From: Hyaloraphidium curvatum
Lineage: Eukaryota; Monoblepharomycota; Hyaloraphidiomycetes; Hyaloraphidiales; Hyaloraphidiaceae
Assembly (NCBI GenBank): GCA_025558095.1
Contig: JAIVFI010000007.1
Location: 372,001 to 436,000 of the forward strand
Reading direction: 5' to 3'
Length of the DNA stretch: 64,000 bases
The notes beneath the pieces were generated by a model. It had not been told where the DNA came from. It did no database searches and saw only the letters and a program-made list of their open reading frames with translations. Position 1 is the first letter of the stretch; each line of letters opens with the position of its first letter. The position numbers were made by a program, and so were the translations under genes. Positions 3,822 through 23,283 of the stretch are shown here, piece after piece.

Positions 3822-4070
3822 TTCCGCTCTTGGAGCACAGTAGCGGCTCTGACGCGGGATTCGGCCCCCAGAACCCCCGGGCAGCGTTGTGATTCGAGGG
3901 CAAAGGACTGCGCCCGCCGGACGAATTGCAGTGTCGTTTCACACACAGGTCCCGCTACTCGAGCTTGCCGGAGTCGCCGCGTGCGAATTTGCAACCGCTA
4001 GAGCACAGTCTCCATCGCAAAAGGCGCGTGGTGCCTCCTGCGTCGCGTCGGGGAACGGCACGGCCAAAAC
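3822..4070. other. Intergenic region holding the left end of the mobile element
   Basis: 249 bp between the MCM10 start and the transposase start. It must contain the MCM10 promoter and the left terminus of the element. I could not find a convincing terminal inverted repeat by eye. The 10-mer at 3834-3843 recurs in the same orientation at 12533-12542, downstream of the Fanzor gene. Confidence 0.5.
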
Positions 4071-5150
4071 ATGCTTCTGAGCGGGCCAGAAACCGCGGTT
4101 CGGCTCAAGCAGACCGGCAAGCTTGGCCCGGACGAGATTGCTGCTGTACTCGCAATTCACCGAACGACGTATTTCCGTTGGATCCGCCGATGTGGGGCTC
4201 AGACCGTTCCGGACCATCCCCGCAAGGCCTTCCGCAAGGTGTCCGAGGAAATGGTCCGGCACGTAGTTGACGAGGCCAAAGCTCGCGTCCGCGTGACGCA
4301 AAGGGAGCTCGCTGCTGACCTGGCGGAAAAGTTTGGCGTTTTGGTGTCGCAGCAGCATATCTCGCGGCTGCTGAAGGCCAACAGGGTCACGAGGAAGAAG
4401 CTCACCATTAAGAGCGCCGAAGCCCTGAAACAACCCGAGCGGCACCGCATGTTCCACGAGAGGGTCACTTCCTTTGATTTGGGGCGCCTAGGTGCCTTGG
4501 ACGAGTCCTCATTCCAACTCAACGATCCGGGGCGCTTCGGCTACTCGGAGAAGGGGACTCCCGCCGTCGTATACCTGCCAGGGAACCGGGGCCCCAAGGT
4601 GACCCTTTGCCTCGCCATCTCACCCACTCCGCGACCCGGTAATCACACTGGAAACGTGATCTCGTACCAGATCTACAGCGGCAACATGAACACCGAGAGG
4701 TTCTGTGCTTTTCTCAAGACTATTCGCGCCGGGGCTTGTGGGCCCGAGTCCCTGGGCGTTATCCTGGACAATGCGGGTTTCCACGGCTCTCCTCTGCGGG
4801 CAAGGAAGACCACGGACGGCACGGCAATAATAAAGAACCTCTCGGGCAAGTCGTTCCTTGCGGTCCAGGCCGTAGCAAAGGCCAACAATCTGAGCCTCAT
4901 CTACCTGCGACCGAGATCGCCGGAATTTAACCCGACCGAGTACGTGTTTGCCACGATCAAGAACCTCGTGAGGCGGGACTGCCCCAGGACGGTGCCGGAT
5001 CTCGTCCGGTCCATCGAGAGGGCCATTCAAATCGTCGGCCACGGCGATCTGATGGCGACGTTCCGGCACTGCTTGAAGCTAAGCGAGGCTGAGTTTGTGC
5101 GCATCGCGGAATCCGCGTCCGCCGGCAAATGTGTGGCGCGGAAGGTCACA
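4071..5150 (+). CDS. IS630/Tc1-mariner-like DDE transposase region
   Basis: N-terminal part of a 785-codon open frame beginning at ATG 4071. Residues 1-110 hold two helix-turn-helix-like segments (DEIAAVLAIHRTTYFRWIRR, then REL...VSQQHISRLLKANRV), the bipartite DNA-binding region of this superfamily. The DDE_3-type catalytic core has Asp144 in LGALDESSF, Asp233 in GVILDNAGFH and Glu290 in PEFNPTEYVFATIK. Asp233 and Glu290 are 56 residues apart rather than the usual 34-36, because of an extra stretch around TTDGTAIIKNLSGKSF. The transposase cuts and pastes the element through its ends (family knowledge). The frame runs on without a stop into an unassigned region; the end given here is where transposase similarity stops. 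Confidence 0.85.
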
Positions 5151-7015
5151 CTACAAGGTCAGATCTCTGCCTTTGCTTCTCCGGCTCCTCAGACGTGCCC
5201 TTCCGCGATGGAGGGCGCAGCAGCGACCCAGACCGAAGCAAACGCGGCCGAGCGGCTCGCTGAAGAGGTGGACTGCCATGACGGTTGCGCATCGGGCATG
5301 CAGACCGCGCTGACTCACGACAACGCCCACTCCGAGCAGGCTCGCAACCTCGGCGTCGCCCACATCAACCCGCACCAAAAGCACACTTTGCTGATCCTGA
5401 GGGAAGTTCTCCACGTCGATGGTTCGGCGAGGGAATTCTTTGGGCCGTGGAACGACTTCACGGACTCCGCTCAAAGGACCGCGGGCTTCGACGCTGCGGA
5501 CGTCCTCGGGGGCCTCTCCAACCTCGGTGAAGCTCCTTTTGAGTTCATCTGTCAGCGGGTGGCATCGGGTCGGGGGTACAAGCTGGAGCGCGAGCTTTTC
5601 GTCGCGCGCCTCCGGAACATCGTCGCCCGGCGGCGCCGGGTCGCCCCCAGTCTGATCGGACCAGACGCACCGGCACCCCCCTTTTTCCGCCCCGCGGACG
5701 ATGGCGCGGATCTGGGACCGCCGTCAGCCCCCGACGTCTCCATCTCCCAGCTGGATAACCTCGCCCGCTATGCCGACGTCCCACCGGAACTTAACGTCTC
5801 GTTCAAGAAAGCCAGCCGCGCCGCGTTGAAACAGCTGTTTCCGCTCTCAGCCCTTGCAAACGACACCGTGCTGGACGAGAGGTTCGCCATCCTCCTATCG
5901 GGCCTTGTACGAAACGGTCGTGGACCAGAATGGCTACGTGCGCTCGCTGTTTCTCTCTGGGGACAGCTCGGCCCGGCCGGGAGGGCACGCATGGACAGCT
6001 TCGAAACATCCGAGACAGCACGTCGTGCTCTGCATTATGTTCACCAGCCCATTTCGAAGGTCTGTCGGTTGGAGTACCTCGAACGCGCGGCTTCGACCGA
6101 GTCTCTGCCAAGGAACCTTAGGCAGATACTGGAGGAAGCGTGCCGCACGCTGAAGGACCAGCAGGGCCGCTCGCTTTTTGATGCGTCGCCCGGCCTGGAG
6201 TACTTCCTTGCTTCGCTCTCCCTCCCGCAGCGATGCAAGATAGTCATGGCGGCGCGTTTGCCGGATAGTGTGGCGAGTCGCAATGCGGAAGGGCGCAAGA
6301 GATTCTTCGATTGGGCGGTGTGGAACCCGATGGCGGCCAACGAGGAGGCCCTCGCCATCGAGAATCCGGGTTCCGTTCCCGTGCTGGTGTGCAATCTCCT
6401 GTCGAGCAGCCCCGCAATCCCAAACTGAATTTTGCCCCGGCAGCTGCTTTCGTTCCCGGGCCTTTTCCAGATGAGCCCGGGCGTACCTGGACTGGATGCA
6501 GAGGGCGATAAGCTGCTGGCAACCCTGTTCCTGAAGGCGGAGCAGCTCGGGTGGGAACACTCTTCCATGGTGACGCTGCGGCTGCTGGAGTCGGGGCCCA
6601 AGATGCGCGATTTTACCCTGGACTTGTGCGGTATGCCCGCGCTGGTGCGCGGTAGCAACCCCGAAGCACGGCAGGAGGCCGCGCGCACCGCGCTCGACGC
6701 CAAGCTCCACTTCCACGCGGAATCCGTTGGACTGCTGGACTTCGGCCGTATCCAGAAGCGGGATTGTCCGCTCTGTTCCTTCAGTGTGCAGGTGGAAGGC
6801 GAAGTCCCGGCGAAGGCTGGGCGGCGGCGCAAGGTCGCGGCGTCGGGGATGGTGGCTGACGGAGCTGCGCGGGAGCGTGTCTATGACGCCGAGCTTCGGC
6901 TCCTCCACCACGTCAAGGGTGCGCACCTCACCTGCAGAGCGTGCCCGGGGAAGGGACATCAGTTCGACCTCGAGAGTGAGTTCCGGCAGCATGTCGAGGA
7001 GAACCACCGTGGGGC
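5151..7015 (+). CDS. Unassigned region between transposase and Fanzor, with C2H2-like zinc motif
   Basis: The transposase frame continues to a TGA at 6426-6428. A likely intron 6387-6470 (GTGTGC...CCTTTTCCAG) joins it in phase 0 to a second open stretch ending at a GTGAGT donor at 7016. Alternatively a new gene starts at ATG 6471 or at an internal ATG such as 5209. Residues after about 345 match nothing I recognise; they are helix-rich with Pro/Asp linkers. The second stretch contains CPLCSFSV followed by LLHHVKGAH, CRACPGKGH and FRQHVEENH, which could form one or two zinc fingers. Function unknown; location implies a role in the element, for example DNA or RNA binding. Confidence 0.5.
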
Positions 7016-7081
7016 GTGAGTTGCACCGCGCTTTCCATGCATGCCTGGGACCGATGCGAAGCTGACCGCCGCCGCGGACAG

Positions 7082-10000
7082 TTTGGTCGCCCCAAGGAAT
7101 CTCACCACGTCGTTCGGCCAGTTCATTGCCAACGCACACTACATTGTCCCGTTCGCGTCGACAAACCTCAAAGCCAACATTCCTACGGGCCTCGGCGGCT
7201 CGTCCTGCCCTTTCTGTTTCGCCGGTGGCGGGAGGCACCGGCAGGAGTGCTCTCCGAAGCGGCGGTGGGTCGCGCTCAACGGCTTCCTCGCACTTGGCGA
7301 CCCCCAGCACGAGCGATACAAGACGATGACGGAGCTGGCCGTCGAGTGGTTCCCGGCGGCCGAGGTGTGCCACCCATGGGCGCGGGGCCCGTACGAGCAA
7401 GTCGGGCCCCTCATCACCAAGGCCTGCACCCTCGCCGCCATCTTATTCAAGATCATCTGGACCAAGATCTTGTTGCAGATCCACAACAAAGAGCTCCCGG
7501 ACCAAGACGGATCCGTCACGCAGGACATGCTCGCCAGCTTTCCCCCGTCTTACGTCGCAAAGATTGCCATCCACGCCGTGCTTGGTGCCGGCCAGATGTC
7601 CGCCGCTGTTGGAACCCGCCGCGCGGGAAAGCAGAAGTCGGCCGGGCTCGGTGCTGGGGCGAGATACTCGGGCCATTCGGGTGCGCCAGGAGTGGAGCAG
7701 CTTGTGGACGGCGGTCCGGACCTCGGAGCCAACGACGACGATCGAGACGAGGTGCTCGAGGACGTTGACTTCGAGGACGATGACGACGCGATGGCCGAGG
7801 ACCAGGCCGGCGCCAAGATCTTGGCCGACTTCTTGCACGGCGAGCTGGATCAGATTGAGGACGAGGACTTGGTTACGGCTGAGGACACCCCCGATCTCTC
7901 GCAGGTTGCTGATCAGGGCGCACCGTCCGTTCTCACCGTCGCGGAGCACAACGCAGCGGCAAAGCTTGTCCGCAAGGCGGCCGTTGCTGCGTTTGCAGAG
8001 GCGCGGGAACTTGTGGGCGAGACGTACGACAAGCTCAGGCCGCTTTTCGTGCAGGGACCTTTGCTCCGCTATGCCGAGCAGGTCGCTTTCAACCGAGCTC
8101 GAAGCGTGCCGCAGCGGCTGCTGACTGCGCTCAAGGTTCTCATCCGTCGCTTCCTACGCGGGGAGGTGAACGCGGGCGTCGGCCGGAGGCGGATTGGCCC
8201 AATCCTCAGCTACGCTCTGGCAAAGCTCGGATATGGGGACGACGACTTCTCCAATTTCCCGTTCGAAAGCGCATTTGGCTGTGGTCTCGCCGAGGCCACG
8301 GAGCTCAGGGTCGGGCTGGGGAGGCTCCTCCGGCCGTTCAGAGGCTTGCAGCTGAACCGGATCGTTGACCTCCGGGATTCAAAACAGAAGCCGCCGGTGC
8401 CGGCAACCGTTTCGCAGCGGAGGGTTATCGCTCGGGTCCTGCAGGACAAGCAGGCGGGCAACCCCGTGGCGGCCGCGGTGCGAACCGTGAACCTGCCGAA
8501 GGGCAAGCCGCGCGGAAAGGTCGACGCGGAAACGGAGGCGGTGCGCAGCTACCTCCAGAACATTTGGGAGACGCTGCCGCGGGCCTCACCTGCGGAGAAG
8601 GCTGACTTGCGAAAGGTGGAGCTGCAGGAGCTGAGGGACTGGGTGGTTGCAAACCGTCTACAGCTTCGGAGCATCCCCTTCCGCTACCCGGCCGTGACCA
8701 CGGCAACGATTCGGTCGACAGAGCAGAAACCCAAGTTCTGGGTCCCCGAGCACGCCGAGGACATGAACGAGGCGGCGGCGGTGGCATTGGTGGGGCAGAA
8801 CCGGCCCCACTGGGAAAGCGAGAAGCTTTTGGTGGCGCGGATGAGCGAGTATGACCTCGACAAGTGTCGTTCATCCACGAACCCCGCGGACGAAGCCTTC
8901 GGCTTCCAGATGTGCTTCATCGCCCTGCACGAGCTCGAAAAGCAGGACGAGGCGCTGAAGAAGAGGGCCGCGTCCGCGGCTGCTGCACTGCCGGAACCTG
9001 GATCGGCGCGGAGGACGAGCACCGCCAGGGACCCCGATTCAACCCCAACTTTCCCAACCATTTCAACTGCTCCGGTCAAGGACAGGGAGGCTTCGAACAA
9101 GACCAGGAGGGCCCGCAACACGTGGCGGCCGCACCGCGTCGAGAAGCGGCATTACAGCAAGAATGGCTCCCCGAAGCGATGGCACGGGTTCGTCGTGAGC
9201 TTCCGTAAGCGCCGACCGCAGCCGGGGCCCGAGGGACTCGCCAAGAAGGAGACCATGGAGACGAAGCGGCGGGAGCGCAAGGCGGCCGCCGCCGCCGCGA
9301 TGGCGGGGCTTGGCGCCGCCCAGACCGGCAAGGAAAAGGCAGCCTCGTGGGCGCGGCGGAAGCTTCGGGCTGCGGTCGCCGAAATCAGCTTGTCCCCCGT
9401 GACCGTCTACATCTCGGCCTCGGATCTGCCCGAGTTTTTGTCCAAGCTGGGCGTGGAGGTCGCGCCTGGCATCGACACCTCGCGCGTTGACTCGGACTAC
9501 CTATTCGGCCACCTGCTCAACGGCGGCAACCAACTCGTCAACGAGGACCGGCTCTTCCGCCTCCGTCAGCAGGGCAAAGTCTCGGCCAGGGGCCATGCCG
9601 CCGCCACGCAGCCCATCTATCGTCGCACCGCGGACGTTCTGAGGTACTCCGGCGTCCGGGGCATCTATCATTGCGGCAGCACCCTGGGCATTCTTAACGA
9701 AGAAGTCTCCTTCGTGGAAAAGGTCTCGTTCCAGCAGTCGCAGCAGCAGGAGCGGCAAAACACGACACAGGACGTCGAGCCGCCAAAGCGCGCAGCGCAT
9801 TCGCCAGCAGCCGCGCCGGCTCCTCCTGTTCAAACTCGGCCCACCGTCTCCGTTCCCGCCGCAGCTCATGTGCCCGCCGGTCTTGCTGCTTTCGAAGTGG
9901 ATGTTTCGTTCCCTCGCGATGTTCCGATGGATCCCTACCCGCCGCTCTACACCGGTCCATGGCTGCCAAACGGCGATCCGGACCCGCCGTGCGACATGGC

Positions 10001-12443
10001 TGTCTTCGATGGTGGGCATTTTGCTCAGTGACGCACGGGTTCGGAGGCTGATCGGATCCTCACTTTTCCAGGCCAGAATCGGATTTGGCATGGGGGCATG
10101 GTCTACTACCTGCAGGCGACGGCCCAAGGGGACGAATCGGTCCCGATGGATTGGGAGCCCTCTTATTGTGCCAGCAGCAACCTTAACTTCACCACCATGC
10201 CTTCCGAGCCTCCGGCGGACTGCGGCATCCCCGCCGCGGTCCCGCCGGAACCCCCGCCCTTTTTCTCCTTCGTCGAACCACCAGCCTCGACTTCTCTCCC
10301 TGCCTCCATTCCCCCGGAACCGCCCCCGCATTGGGTGCACGACCCGTGCTCGTGCTGTCAAGATGCCGCCTGCAAGGCCGTGGACTGTGCGCCCAACGTG
10401 TTCGCGCCCCTGAGCTCGGGGCACAACGACCCTCCCTGCGCGACTGTCTCGCCCGGTGACTCGGTGCCCGAGACTTCTGTGCATCCATGCGCGGCCCTTC
10501 CTTTCCCCGACTTCTCGCCGCCACTTCCTTCCCCCTTCCTTTCTTGCTTCCCTCCCGAAGTCGTCGTTTGCGCGGTCGAACCGTCGCCGCCGACGGTAAC
10601 GGTCGAGGGCAAGTTCGCTGCCCCCGTACCTCCTCAGCTGGCCCCGACCCCGGTTCCGCTCCCGCCGCGTTCTGCCGAGCCGTTGCCGCGGCCCCCGGTC
10701 GACTTCAAGACTGGCATTCCCGTCTACTACCTCAGCCGCCCTGACCATGTGTCCGTGCTGGCACCCAATCTCCTGCACATGCCGACGCAGGCGGAAATGT
10801 TCGAGCGGGCCGAGCGCGGCGAGCCAGTGGAGGGCGGGGTCGTCGACGTGGATCCGAATCGCTGGTTTCTGGCTGTTGCCAACCGCCGCGTCGACGTGCG
10901 GCTCGTTGCCAAGAGCCTGAACCCCGGGCCGAACGGACGCTACGACTTCGCCAACAGTCATCTGCCGGGGACAACGGAGCGCATCACCGTGACCAATGCC
11001 GACGGCACCAAGTCGCACTACGTGCCGAAGCGGGCGAACCCGTCCAAGGCCGACGGTTCCGTCAGCTTCGGGAGGATCGTCGGCTTCCACCTAGAGCACT
11101 CCTGCTCCGATACTAAGCGGATCGCAAGGTCTTTCGGTCCGTCGCCGCCTGCCGCTGGAGCGTGCAGACACCACCCGCTCTGGGAGCCCAAGATCTCGGA
11201 GTTCAAGCCGCCGGCGCCCGATTCGCGCCCCAACGACGCTGCAAAGGCGGAGAAGCACGCTCGGCGCAACGTCGAACTGTTCCCGACCCCTGGCGGCTGC
11301 ACGGACGAGTTTGGTGCCAAGCTGTGGGGCGAGGTCGCTGGTGCCGGCCGTGCGGGGACCCCGGCGCTGCCGGAGCTCATCCTCGGTGTTCCGGCCAAGC
11401 TCGACCGCCGCCTGTGCGGCTACGACAAGGCGGCCGCGCGTCTGAATGCCACCAAGCGGACCACCATGCTGGACGTCAACGATTGCGAGGGCAACCCTGT
11501 GCAGAAGTCTCTCCACGATTTCGAGCGCGACCTGCCCTCTCAACGCACAACGAACAGTGCAGCCTTCTCGGACTACACGAGGGCGCTGCTGCCACAACTC
11601 GACCGCATCCTGGACGTCTACTGTTCCGGAGAACGGAGGTGGGCAAGCCAATCCCTGTGGCAACGACTTCGCTCACGCATCCTGCAGCCTGGATCGTGTG
11701 CGCACGATTCGCCGGCGCCGCGAGGTCCTCAGCTGGATCTGTCGCGACATGTGTCGCAACCCGTATTCGGGCAAGTACGATCCACAGACGACCATCGCAT
11801 ACGGCGCCGCGCGATTCGGCCATGCGAGCAAGGGCGGCCCGGCCTCCCGGATCGTTCGCTTCAGGGCGGAGCTGGCCAAGGCCGGGATCATGGTCTTGGT
11901 CAACGAGTACCTCACGTCCCAAATGTGCAGCTGGTGCGGCAGCCGCCGTGATCATCCGACTCGCCTGACGTCCTTTCCAGCTGCAAGACCACCTATGTCG
12001 TCGGAATCCGGAACCCCGGCTCCAAGGGCGAGGTGCGCGGGGTGAAATACTGTCCCCTCTGCCGCCGCTTCTGGATGCGCGACGTGAACAGTGTGCACTC
12101 CATGGAGCACCTCTTCTGGTTCGGCCTCATCACCGGAGGGGAGCGCCCCTGGCCGTTCAGGCCGGACACCAGGAAGCCGAAGCCGCAGCCCAAGCTCCGA
12201 GCTGGGACTGGTGCAGCGCCGCGCAAGTCCGCGGGTGAGCGCGCTCGCATTCGCGACGGTCATCCCGAGCGTCATCCCGAGCTGATCCGGGAGCTCCAGG
12301 TGCCGCCACAGGCCGCAAGCGTACGGCCGCAAGCGCCGCGAATGGGTCGGTCAAGAAGCTCAAGCCGGCAAGCTGACCTGGCCGCGGAAACAGTTACAAG
12401 TTGGCGTGCCATGCACCGCGTGGGCGCCATTGCATTTGCTTGA
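7082..12443 (+). CDS. Fanzor (eukaryotic TnpB/OMEGA) RNA-guided nuclease
   Basis: Exons 7082-10011, 10072-11638, 11688-11933 and 11981-12443, joined by GT/AG introns of 60, 49 and 47 bp in one frame, with the preceding exon joined through intron 7016-7081. The last 350 residues show the TnpB/Fanzor RuvC and zinc-ribbon signature. A RuvC-I-like Asp lies in GGVVDVDPNRWFLAVANR (about 10834-10890). Then come TTIAYGAARFGHASKGGPAS, the EYLTSQMCSWC zinc knuckle, the second knuckle YCPLCRRFW, and RuvC-III RDVN. The long N-terminal part (about 980 residues) has an early CPFC...C motif, an acidic tract (DDDDR...EDDDDAMAEDQ) and basic stretches, but nothing I can assign; a Pro-rich linker precedes the RuvC part. 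Fanzors cut DNA under guidance of an element-encoded RNA (established for the family). An alternative start is ATG 7041. Confidence 0.82.
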
Positions 12444-12773
12444 TCGAGGTGGAGTCCGTCAGGGACCGCCTTTTATTCGCAGGCTCGATGATGAACATTG
12501 CTGCTAGGCCGCAAAGGATTGCGGCACAGGGGGCACAGTAGCAGTTTCTGAGAGTGTAGCTATGGCCAACTTCGTCGCCACCACCCCATCCCGGGAGACG
12601 AAGGCCAGCTTGCTTAACAACCACCCTCGCGGCAACTTGCCTGCTCAAAAGGCACCTCGCCCGGTCACGCTAGTGGCGGGGCCTTTGCATCGCGGGAGAC
12701 GACGCTTGTTCAACTGGACATCCGAACATTGCGGGAGACGAGGACTCCAGCTGCTTCTTCGCTGCTCGACGCC
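12444..12773. other. Right end of element and promoter of TauD-like gene
   Basis: 330 bp without a convincing coding region. In characterised Fanzor elements the guide RNA is encoded at or beyond the 3' end of the nuclease gene, so this is the place to look for it. It contains three copies of a 15-bp repeat listed separately and the 10-mer shared with the left side. No clear inverted terminal repeat seen. Confidence 0.5.
12587..12741 (+). repeat. Three dispersed copies of CATYSCGGGAGACGA
   Basis: Copies at 12587-12601, 12688-12702 and 12727-12741, all in the same orientation, differing only at the fourth and fifth bases. The spacing is 101 and 39 bp. The last copy lies 33 bp before the start codon of the TauD-like gene. 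They may be regulatory sites of that gene or subterminal transposase-binding repeats of the element. Confidence 0.6.
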
Positions 12774-13720
12774 ATGTCGAAGTTCAACCACATCAAGATC
12801 AAGCGCATGGGCAGGCACCTGGGGGCGCTCGTAGAGGACATTGACCTGAAGGCAGTCCTCGCCGACACGTCTCCGCGCGCCAAGGAGGTCCGCTCCGAGA
12901 TCCGCCGTGCCTGGCTCGAGAACGGCGTCCTCTTCTTCCGCCGGCAGCCTCTGACGGAGGCGGAGTTTGTTTCCCTGGCGAATGTCTTCAACCCCGCCAT
13001 GAGGTGTGTAGCAGCACGACCAGGGGACCGTCAGTAGTAATACCAGTTCCGGCCTGTCGCAGGTACCCTTTCGTGCGGCCGATCTCGGAAGATTACCCTC
13101 AGACTATAGCTGTTAAGAAGCTGCCGCACGAGACGAATGCGTTCGGGAACATTTGGCACAGCGATACGAGTTACTTGGAGGAGCCACCGAGCGCCACCCT
13201 GCTGATCGCTAGGGAGCTGCCGCCGCACGGCTTGGGTGATACCTGCTTCGCTTCCCAGACAGCAGCCTACGAGGGCCTGTCACCGAAGTTGCGGCACATC
13301 CTGGAGCAGCTTGTGGCGGTCAACTCCTCGGCCAAGGCCGACGTGACCAAAACGCGCGAGGACAGGGTCGCCGAGGAGAACGCGGACACGAGCCGTCCGG
13401 CTCCGGAGAAGAAGGACTACGAGGCCCACCACCCCGCGGTCTGCACGCACCCGGAGACCGGGAAGCGCGTGCTGTACGTCAACGTTGCGCACACCGCGCG
13501 CTTCGACGGCATGACTGCGGAGGAATCCGAGCCGCTCCTGAACTTCCTGTTCCGGCACCAGGTCAAGGCCGAGTACTCGTTACGGTGGACCTGGGAGAGC
13601 CCAGGGGACATTGCGATCTGGGACAACCGGAGCGTGCAGCACTACCCGGTCAACGACTACCACGGCTACAAGCGCCTCATGCACCGGATCACCACCAAGG
13701 GCGAGCGGCCCCGCCTCTAG
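12774..13720 (+). CDS. TauD/TfdA-type Fe(II)/2-oxoglutarate dioxygenase
   Basis: Exons 12774-13003 and 13063-13720 (59-bp intron), 295 residues. The facial-triad His and Asp are in NIWHSDTSY and the second His in WDNRSVQHYPVNDY; the 2-oxoglutarate-binding Arg is in LMHRITTKG. The N-terminal segment GALVEDIDLKAVL is typical of the TauD family, which hydroxylates taurine, sulfonates or other small acids; the substrate cannot be told from sequence. An upstream in-frame ATG at 12729 exists, but the chosen start matches the family N-terminus better. Its stop codon overlaps that of the convergent methyltransferase gene by four bases. Confidence 0.88.
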
Positions 13721-14391
13721 GAGCTCGCCGGTCTCTTGAGCCTCATCTTGACGATCACGACGTCGGCCTCGCCTTCCCGCCGGAACTTGGCAGCCTTTGG
13801 GACCTTGGCGACCTCAAAGCCGCGCTCCCGAGCCACGTCCAGAAAATGCTGGACCACGAGTGGGTCCCGCTCCTCGTAAGCGATGTACGCGACGCTGCGC
13901 TGGTGGCAGGCGCGCAGGATAGCTCCCAGGAACGGTTCGACCAGTGTCATGGAAAAGAGTGTGTCGCTGGCAAGGATGAGGTCGTAAGGCCCGAGTGCCC
14001 ATACGTCGCTCCCCCGTACGTCTTCCGGAGGCAACCCGGACCACGTCCAGTCCAGCTCCTTCACGGTCGCCTTCATAACCTCGTTCAGATCCAGGTTGTA
14101 ACGTGCAAGCTCCACAACCTCCCCCGGCGCCGCCCCCGCGTCGCTCGTGTCCGTGCAGACCACCAGCTCGGCGCCCAGTTTTGCGCAGACCATGGCATTC
14201 AGACAAGCCGTGCCGCTGCCGAGCTCGAGTACCTTCTGGCCCTTGAGGTTCCCGAGAGTTTTGTGTAGGAACCGCGAAAGCACTCGGGCACCGTCCCAGA
14301 CCGTTGTGCCGTGGGCGAGGGAAGCATTCGACTGCCGGATCCTGAAGGACAGGCCATTCGCGACTTCGAAAACCTCTTCAAAGTCCGGCAT
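13717..14391 (-). CDS. METTL21/EFM-type lysine methyltransferase
   Basis: Single-exon 224-residue protein from ATG 14391. The SAM-binding motif I is VLELGSGTA, preceded by TTVWDGARVLSRFL, the region before motif I in Methyltransf_16 family enzymes. Post-motif II is PYDLILASDTLF, close to the (D/E)xxY-like catalytic segment of this family. Members methylate lysines of elongation factors, chaperones or other proteins; the target is not deducible. The start codon is only 77 bp from that of the divergent mitochondrial-protein gene, so they must share a promoter. The longer open frame upstream to 14691 overlaps that gene and is not needed. Confidence 0.82.
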   Translation of the reverse strand: MPDFEEVFEVANGLSFRIRQSNASLAHGTTVWDGARVLSRFLHKTLGNLKGQKVLELGSGTACLNAMVCAKLGAELVVCTDTSDAGAAPGEVVELARYNLDLNEVMKATVKELDWTWSGLPPEDVRGSDVWALGPYDLILASDTLFSMTLVEPFLGAILRACHQRSVAYIAYEERDPLVVQHFLDVARERGFEVAKVPKAAKFRREGEADVVIVKMRLKRPASS

Positions 14392-14468
14392 TCGGTCGTC
14401 GACGTCGCCAGCAGGTCGTCCAGGGAGAGACCGAAGGCAAGCCGTAAACAAACACGACGCTACCCGAG

Positions 14469-15503
14469 ATGCAGGCCACGCGAGCCCTGTCCGGGGTGGC
14501 CCTCCGCGCGCTTCCAGCGCGTGTATCAATAACGACTGCTCTCCGGCTTCCCGTCGTGCCGCCGTCTCGATTTCCTTCCGCGTCGAGGACGGAGTTTGGA
14601 CGCCACTTTGCCGCATCCCCGGAAACGCCGCCTCCGCCCAAGCCCGAGGCCCAGACGCCGGTCGACGGGCAGCAGGTGGACCCGGCAACATCCGCTCCGG
14701 CCGCGCGGTACCCGTGGCGCTTCAGCTTCGAGCCTCCCTACCCTCCCCCGCCCTCCTCCTTCTTCGCCCGGGTCGTGGCGCCGATCAAGGCCTCCCACTT
14801 CCTCTCCCTGGGCCTGCAGCGCGCCAAGCGGCACCTCCCCTCGCACCTCCGCGACGCGTTCCCCGCATCCCTGCTGGAGAACGACGCCCCCGCCCTCATC
14901 CGCTCCCTATTCGGCGCCCTGACCTCCCCCGACGCGACCGAGGAGGACTTCCACCGCGTCGCCTGCCCCCTCCTTGCCGACCGCCTCATCGAGGCCGCGT
15001 CCGAGGCGGAACAGTTGGGCCTGGACGTGCAGTTCGCCGTGCCCCCCGGCAGCCCGGCACCGGAGTCGCTCAAGGTGGTCGGGTACCGCTTCCTCTACGG
15101 CCCCCGCGACCCCGCCACGGGGGCGATACCCGAGACCCACACGAGGACGCCGTGGTTCAACGGGCTGGTGACGCTGATCGTGCCCAGGGAGGAGGCCGAG
15201 TTCAGGCACCACCAGCACCAGCGGGAGCTGGTGCTCGGCGCCATGGCCGAGGGCGGGGTGATCCACGTGGACGTCAAGGCGAGCAACTGGGCCGTGGGGA
15301 TGCGGGTCGCCGAGGGCGGGGCGCCGGGGTCCGAGGGGGCCGTGGTCGTCGAGGACCGCAAGGACGGGATCGTGTACACGTTCGAGAGCTCGCGGTTCGT
15401 TGCCGGGCCAAAGGGGCAGGAGTCGAAGCTGCTGGACGACGCGTGGGGGTGGCGCATCTCGGACATCGACTTTATCCTCACACAGGAGCAGAAGGAGATG
15501 TAA
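14469..15503 (+). CDS. Predicted mitochondrial protein, unknown function
   Basis: Intronless 344-residue protein. The first 40 residues are rich in Arg, Ala, Ser and Leu with no acidic residue, a typical mitochondrial presequence (MQATRALSGVALRALPARVS). A Pro-rich linker follows, then a globular part with SLLENDAPALIRSLFGAL, HVDVKASNWAV and a terminal WGWRISDIDFIL segment. The fold pattern (helices, then a beta-rich half ending in a Trp-containing strand) is loosely like the Tim44/MBA1/MRPL45 group, but I cannot confirm it. Divergent from the methyltransferase gene; its stop lies 9 bp from the stop of the convergent RS-rich gene. Confidence 0.6.
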   Translation: MQATRALSGVALRALPARVSITTALRLPVVPPSRFPSASRTEFGRHFAASPETPPPPKPEAQTPVDGQQVDPATSAPAARYPWRFSFEPPYPPPPSSFFARVVAPIKASHFLSLGLQRAKRHLPSHLRDAFPASLLENDAPALIRSLFGALTSPDATEEDFHRVACPLLADRLIEAASEAEQLGLDVQFAVPPGSPAPESLKVVGYRFLYGPRDPATGAIPETHTRTPWFNGLVTLIVPREEAEFRHHQHQRELVLGAMAEGGVIHVDVKASNWAVGMRVAEGGAPGSEGAVVVEDRKDGIVYTFESSRFVAGPKGQESKLLDDAWGWRISDIDFILTQEQKEM

Positions 15504-23088: not shown

Positions 23089-23283
23089 CGCGGCAGACGC
23101 GAGCCCGCAATGAGAGTCGTGACTTTTTGGGACCCGGACCGACGCGCTGCTGCCGGCCGGGAGAGACGGGGCGGGTTGGCGTGATCGACGCCGCGGCAGC
23201 CAGGGCCGCGCATCTCCAAACACTCGTCTCCCACCGAAAGCAGCTGTAGAGCCCCAGCGGACCACCGGACATTTGTGGAAACG

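Follow-up and report, generated by a model that had tools for sequence, protein, structure and literature searches.

A predicted transposase-Fanzor1 fusion protein encoded by a mariner-type transposon that lies upstream of host genes

The 64,000-nucleotide stretch of DNA analysed here (the window; C7:372001-436000 within a 31.9-Mb assembly of 55 contigs) contains a complete DNA transposon in which a single predicted reading frame joins a transposase, a linker and a Fanzor nuclease. Taken together, the evidence makes it probable that this is an intact and recently mobile IS630/Tc1/mariner-type transposon encoding one spliced transposase-linker-Fanzor1 protein of about 2,697 residues, which would capture a host promoter and take its guide from the host leader. 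The original prediction had confined a Fanzor gene to positions 10834-12443. That interval does hold the RuvC and zinc-ribbon end, but the gene starts at 4071 and the element extends from 3934 to 12562 (Table 1). The fused transposase, the full extent of the element, its unusual target duplications and its promoter-proximal insertion all go beyond that prediction. The introns and host genes indicate that the genome to which the window belongs is eukaryotic; a photosynthetic host was considered and rejected, as no chlorophyll-binding families were found in this genome.

Table 1. Positions of the transposon, its predicted gene and the adjoining host features in the window
Feature	Position	Strand	Remarks
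Complete DNA transposon, family A	3934..12562	+	8,629 bp; edges placed by comparison with other copies
Left target site duplication	3932..3933	.	2 bp, TG
Right target site duplication	12563..12564	.	2 bp, TG
Left terminal inverted repeat	3934..3959	+	Imperfect, T.G.T.CAC.C.CAG...C.GCTACT; aligned to right end
Right terminal inverted repeat	12537..12562	-	Aligned to left end
Predicted single spliced reading frame	4071..12443	+	2,697 aa/codons; transposase, linker/putative zinc fingers, Fanzor
Exons	4071-6386, 6444-7015, 7082-10011, 10072-11638, 11688-11933, 11981-12443	+	Predicted splicing
Intron 1	6387..6443	+	57 nt; transposase exon to zinc-finger exon; sister family: same place, 59 nt
Intron 2	7016..7081	+	66 nt, GTGAGT; zinc-finger exon to Fanzor N-terminal exon; sister family: same place, 54 nt
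Intron 3	10012..10071	+	60 nt; sister family: same place, 52 nt
Intron 4	11639..11687	+	49 nt; sister family: same place, 60 nt
Intron 5	11934..11980	+	47 nt; inside zinc ribbon; sister family: same place, 58 nt; removal lifts Pfam score over cut-off
HTH_32 DNA-binding region	4170..4373	+	Pfam PF13565, E 2.7e-7, slightly under cut-off
DDE_3 transposase core	4497..4976	+	Pfam PF13358, E 5e-15, over cut-off
RuvC-I DPN, catalytic D2200	10851..10859	+	D at 10851-10853; D-P-N-R invariant in four family members
Displaced catalytic glutamate E2535	11905..11907	+	Six residues before first zinc-ribbon Cys, C2542; invariant in four members
C4 zinc ribbon, CSCC ... CPLC	11926..12065	+	Split by intron 5
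RuvC-III aspartate D2578 (RDVN)	12081..12083	+	RD[VI]NS kept across four members
Conserved 3' block, candidate omegaRNA scaffold	12438..12474	+	37 nt at/after stop codon; family A versus B identity 92%; predicted hairpin
Second candidate omegaRNA element	12508..12525	+	7-bp perfect hairpin near right end
Host target motif	3902..3911	+	AAAGGACTGC here; family consensus AAGGGNTT; begins 32 bp upstream of insertion
Host TauD-family dioxygenase gene, outside element	12774..13720	+	Start 211 nt past right end; Pfam TauD E 7.7e-46

The C-terminal part of the predicted protein was firmly assigned to the Fanzor (TnpB-like) family on the basis of profile matches and motif content. Without splicing, Pfam profile PF07282 (TNB/OrfB zinc-ribbon domain) scored 20 bits, which is below the cut-off. 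Removal of intron 5 changes CSWCGSRR to CSCCKTTYVV, and the spliced protein scored 26.5 bits against a cut-off of 26.3 (E 7.5e-6), a small margin for the window protein; the same profile also matched three relatives, i.e. all four members compared. NCBIfam IS200_TnpB/guided_TnpB models likewise matched four of four members (best 1.8e-6). When a profile of the four members was compared with solved structures, it matched LaTranC (5.5e-4) and the Guillardia theta Fanzor1 chain 9cer (E 1.4e-3), with both matches resting on the ribbon region; the sole Fanzor among the structure matches is a Fanzor1, ranking behind LaTranC. A single-sequence search of solved structures yielded no match, and folding the Fanzor N-terminal exon from its single sequence gave a low-confidence model (pLDDT 39). 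The original prediction had named the lack of any match to TnpB/Fanzor profiles as the outcome that would speak against a Fanzor gene; matches were obtained. The motifs that it listed, DVDPN, TTIAYGAARFGHASKGGPAS, EYLTSQMC, YCPLC (C at 12051) and RDVN, are all present in that order, and the short introns that it invoked correspond to GT-AG introns at 11639-11687 and 11934-11980, which join motifs lying in two frames. As the Fanzor exons recur in ten near-identical genome copies (family A; ~99.7-99.8% identity where compared, 99.78-99.84% for the full-length copies compared) and in a sister family (family B; five copies, 74% identical to family A in the conserved exon), a chance origin of these exons is ruled out. 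A more distant Fanzor-like gene at C5:334526-337672 scored over the Pfam cut-off; it contains VDEYLSSQRCPRC and has an unusual RDELSG replacing RDVNSA.

The residues expected of a Fanzor were found in order: the RuvC aspartate, [TS][TS]xx, a C4 zinc finger and RD within 5-50 residues, the distance from the ribbon to RD being five residues. Both CxxC pairs are conserved across the four members. The RuvC-I aspartate and [TS][TS] are 337 residues apart, outside the published range of 125-275, and we read this segment as an expanded spacer with the motif retained. DPG was absent from RuvC-I, all four members having DPN at this position. According to an earlier study, RuvC-I is near-exclusively DPG, and the Fanzor glutamate precedes the zinc finger by six residues (PMC10711439). 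In SpuFz1 the metal is coordinated by D383, N385, E541 and D606 (PMC10432273); as D383 and N385 are reported metal ligands, DPN does not disqualify the window protein as a Fanzor1. Its carrier, an element with a DDE_3 transposase, is a eukaryotic transposon other than IS607, as is the case for Fanzor1. The displaced glutamate and this non-IS607 context appear to fit the Fanzor1 type, and the Fanzor part is predicted to function as an RNA-guided nuclease.

Toward the N-terminus, D144, D233 and E290 are likely to form the catalytic triad of the transposase, with a spacing of 56 residues between the second aspartate and the glutamate. A DDE_3 catalytic domain accompanied by a helix-turn-helix (below its cut-off) and terminal inverted repeats place the element with IS630/Tc1/mariner; the repeats are imperfect and about 26 bp long in both families. 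The transposase is present in 15 of the 15 copies of families A and B and has relatives elsewhere in the genome, and the family A and sister transposases are 64% identical. With a transposase, inverted repeats and target duplications all found, the earlier description of an intact transposon was borne out. The transposase that was said to accompany the Fanzor gene was also recovered (DDE_3, 5e-15), apparently as part of the same protein.

Comparison of the flanks identified 2-bp target duplications at 9 of 10 family-A sites and at 4 of 5 sister sites. Their sequences in the other family-A copies are CC, AC, CC, TG, AT, CG, GC and AG, and those in the sister family are CG, GG, CT and CC; edge placement in some copies allowed the first one or two element bases to vary (TA, TC or TG). 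Tc1/mariner elements duplicate TA at the target. This hallmark of IS630/Tc1/mariner was found in neither family, the duplications being 2 bp long and variable in both. As the published Fanzor mariners have TA duplications (PMC3627910), the elements described here are unlike them in this respect. No viral relatives were found in the viral sequence collection searched. About 90 bp to the left of the element, host sequence at window positions 3833-3860 (GCACAGTAGCGGCTCTGA) resembles the right end of the element (GCACAGTAGCAGTTTCTGA), possibly by chance.

Three copies (the window copy, C3 and C6a) were read over their full length, while for most others the edges and 3' parts were read. Over the whole element, C3 differs from the window copy by 16 substitutions and C6a by 14, with no indels in either, and the remaining copies show few changes in the last 2.3 kb. 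Such near-identity is the pattern expected of recent transposition. Damage was seen in two copies. Copy C35 contains a nonsense codon, K2265* (last 2.3 kb compared). In copy C7b (C7:468333-471611) a proline-rich linker stretch, matching window 10211-10372, is swapped for unrelated sequence and the remainder is nearly identical; gene conversion or rearrangement could be responsible. The claim that the frames carry no disabling mutations therefore stood over the full element length for the window copy, C3 and C6a and failed for the copy with the nonsense codon. One nonsense codon in ten copies and one replaced linker segment could be taken to mean that the element is a dead relic with a Fanzor that no longer functions. 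However, the three fully read copies are free of frame damage and only ~0.2% apart, and all of the catalytic residues are present, such that we consider a relic very improbable.

The five predicted introns are all GT-AG and 47-66 nt in length; splice sites were chosen for open frames and for fit to the protein alignment. In family A, the transposase, zinc-finger, Fanzor N-terminal and RuvC-I frames share the same phase, and the stops that separate them fall in introns 1 to 3. All five intron positions recur in the sister family, where the introns have unrelated sequence and different lengths; two further introns were assumed to hold its frame open. Between the spliced proteins of the two families, identity is 27-75% per 100-residue block from the start to the end of the Fanzor part, without a break at the joints. 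As five intron positions are shared despite unrelated sequence and length, and as the protein alignment is unbroken, a single protein of ~2,697 residues is favoured; the data are best read as a natural transposase-Fanzor fusion, a prediction that is well supported. A frameshift pseudogene was also considered and was rejected because the intron positions are conserved.

Alternatively, Fanzor1 and the transposase could each have a gene of their own within a single mariner-type element, with the continuous frame a by-product of G+C-rich, stop-poor sequence. The published Mariner Fanzor elements are described as encoding the Fanzor protein alongside a transposase (PMC3627910). Moreover, the window is 65% G+C, a composition in which long open frames arise easily, such frames are present on both strands, and stops do occur in introns 1 and 2. 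These two joining introns nevertheless keep their positions in the sister family and differ in length there (57/59 and 66/54 nt), so that the frame across them is kept by splicing alone, and protein similarity between the families crosses both joints gap-free. Two separate genes thus appear unlikely. Two distant, single-copy relatives (C2:397301-407200 and C2:426401-436300, about 30 kb apart) both have the transposase first and the Fanzor about 8 kb on, in frames that are partly broken. Apart from one weak match in the zinc-finger region, their linkers have no detectable similarity to those of families A and B, which restricts the evidence for the fusion to these two families; with frames broken in places and an unrecognisable linker, the relatives do not decide for or against it. 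Splicing, the start codon and activity are all predicted, as is the fusion itself, to which processing or internal starts would be alternatives.

At 10 of the 15 insertion sites, the right edge of the element is followed by a gene that has a Pfam match and the same orientation as the element. These genes encode TauD, SET, MscL, OSCP, CLP1, arginyl-tRNA synthetase, a Myb-like protein (under cut-off), an Rpb4-type polymerase subunit, a histone-fold protein (two exons joined by eye) and ribosomal protein L34. The distance between the element edge and their likely start codons ranges from 20 nt to about 250 nt. If a 10% chance per random point is assumed for position and orientation together, the probability of ten of fifteen is 2e-7. 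The neighbour of one family-A copy (C15, near 545100) is a degenerate related transposase with its possible start 12 nt downstream of the copy; the promoter region of a relative may thus serve the element as a target. In the window, a methyltransferase-like frame (judged by eye; 13717-14721, minus strand) and the TauD-family gene are arranged tail to tail.

Host DNA upstream of the insertions contains a motif at a fixed distance, which is measured from the element edge and so includes the 2-bp duplication. For family A, the motif AAGGGNTT had a best 10-column information of 8.47 bits compared to a null maximum of 3.46 ± 0.39 (z about 13; 0 of 2000 random-offset trials). In the sister family, CGCGTCGATC is found about 30 bp upstream in 3 of 5 sites (p 0.001, from few sites and with the alignment register set by hand). 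The two motifs are unlike each other and their spacing is nearly equal; both are candidate core-promoter elements. As a simple pattern, the family-A motif was not enriched at host promoters in the window (28 found versus 39 expected). Genome-wide, GCGTCGATCAC gave 79 matches compared to 6 for the reversed control, and its copy in the window (23181-23191, minus strand) is followed by a likely gene start at a distance of about 100 nt. Some of 20 GCGTCGATCAC sites inspected were apparently within coding sequence, and its interpretation as a purely promoter motif was rejected.

Insertion next to genes might instead reflect survivorship in a compact genome where the element is tolerated only if it spares coding sequence, with no promoter targeting at all. 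The genome is small (32 Mb), and most of its neutral space is probably near genes. Survivorship explains neither the sense orientation, seen in 10 of 10 Pfam-confirmed sites, nor the motif at a fixed distance (0 of 2000 trials), and we regard it as quite improbable. Promoter-directed insertion is supported by these observations, its mechanism being a proposal. A different reading of the targeting step is that promoter-proximal insertion is real and that the motif is read directly by the DNA-binding domain of the element, not via the host transcription machinery. The finding that two families with transposases 64% identical share a common spacing and have different motifs points in this direction, whereas the position of both motifs where a core-promoter element is expected relative to the start site, followed by sense host genes, argues against it; we consider direct reading a realistic prospect that falls somewhat short of probable. 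More tentatively, and with some doubt on our part, an active fusion could be directed to promoters by binding the initiation complex or by reading the motif, and could insert at a fixed distance downstream; its own expression would then rely on the captured promoter, and the host leader would supply its guide.

In the mechanism that we propose for promoter-directed insertion, the transposase part would act by cut-and-paste, placing the element within a host promoter region and close to the start of transcription, and the captured promoter would then drive transcription of the element. RNA from the 3' end of the element would continue into the host 5' leader, and this leader RNA could guide the Fanzor part to the empty site. 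Cutting of the empty site, followed by repair from the copy-bearing chromosome, would restore or spread the element, a role already proposed for TnpB and Fanzor.

A guide of this kind would presuppose a scaffold at the 3' end. The conserved 3' block is far more similar between families A and B than the neighbouring coding DNA, which is about 71% identical, and a hairpin is predicted for it in both families, making it a suitable candidate for the omegaRNA scaffold. Comparison of the two families revealed no covariation in the stem of this block, as the stem sequence is invariant, and the folding energy of the 3'-end RNA was not lower than that of shuffled sequences (z -0.8 and -1.0). The right-end hairpin (GCAAAGGATTGC) was considered as a copy of the target motif, serving as guide or substitute promoter, and was rejected; it ranks fifth on the plus strand and is outscored by sites elsewhere in the element. 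A guide match to the target motif was looked for in the element without success, and no conserved TAM was evident beside the insertions.

The presence of a Fanzor in a mariner-type element is already known. The Tc1/mariner elements PUl-1 and PGv-1 likewise combine a mariner-type transposase, Fanzor1 and inverted repeats (Bao and Jurka 2013, PMC3627910); their proteins are described as separate and their duplications are TA, whereas the 8.6-kb element described here has one spliced frame and variable 2-bp duplications. SpuFz1 and GtFz1 are also eukaryotic RuvC nucleases with Asp, displaced Glu and Asp, and the D-x-N at RuvC-I of the window protein fits the SpuFz1 metal ligands D383 and N385 (Saito et al. 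2023, PMC10432273). Their omegaRNA comes from the 3' end of the gene, where the window has its candidate block; no transposase domain was reported for them and their activity was shown (PMC10432273), whereas that of the window Fanzor is a prediction. IS607 TnpB and pro-Fanzor proteins with a displaced glutamate have the same six-residue spacing from this glutamate to the zinc-ribbon Cys, but they are bacterial, belong to a serine-recombinase transposon and contain DPG, as opposed to a eukaryotic setting, DDE_3 and DPN in the window (PMC10711439). The literature searched yielded no description of a transposase-Fanzor fusion, of variable 2-bp duplications or of promoter-proximal insertion, which is no proof of absence as one major Fanzor survey lay outside it. 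CRISPR-associated transposons carry an RNA-guided nuclease-family protein within a transposon and insert at a fixed distance from a recognised sequence; in these systems nuclease function is inactive or lost, and the protein is separate. The window element resembles them in its fixed distance and differs in its intact nuclease residues and in that the search for a guide match to the target motif was negative.

Our findings bear on how Fanzors cooperate with eukaryotic transposases. The joined protein, encoded in ten near-identical copies, offers a test case in the form of one expressible molecule, with which one can ask whether the nuclease and transposase halves act on the same site. If true, insertion close to promoters at a fixed distance from a motif would be undescribed for Fanzor elements in the literature searched, and it would predict that the guides are host 5' leaders.
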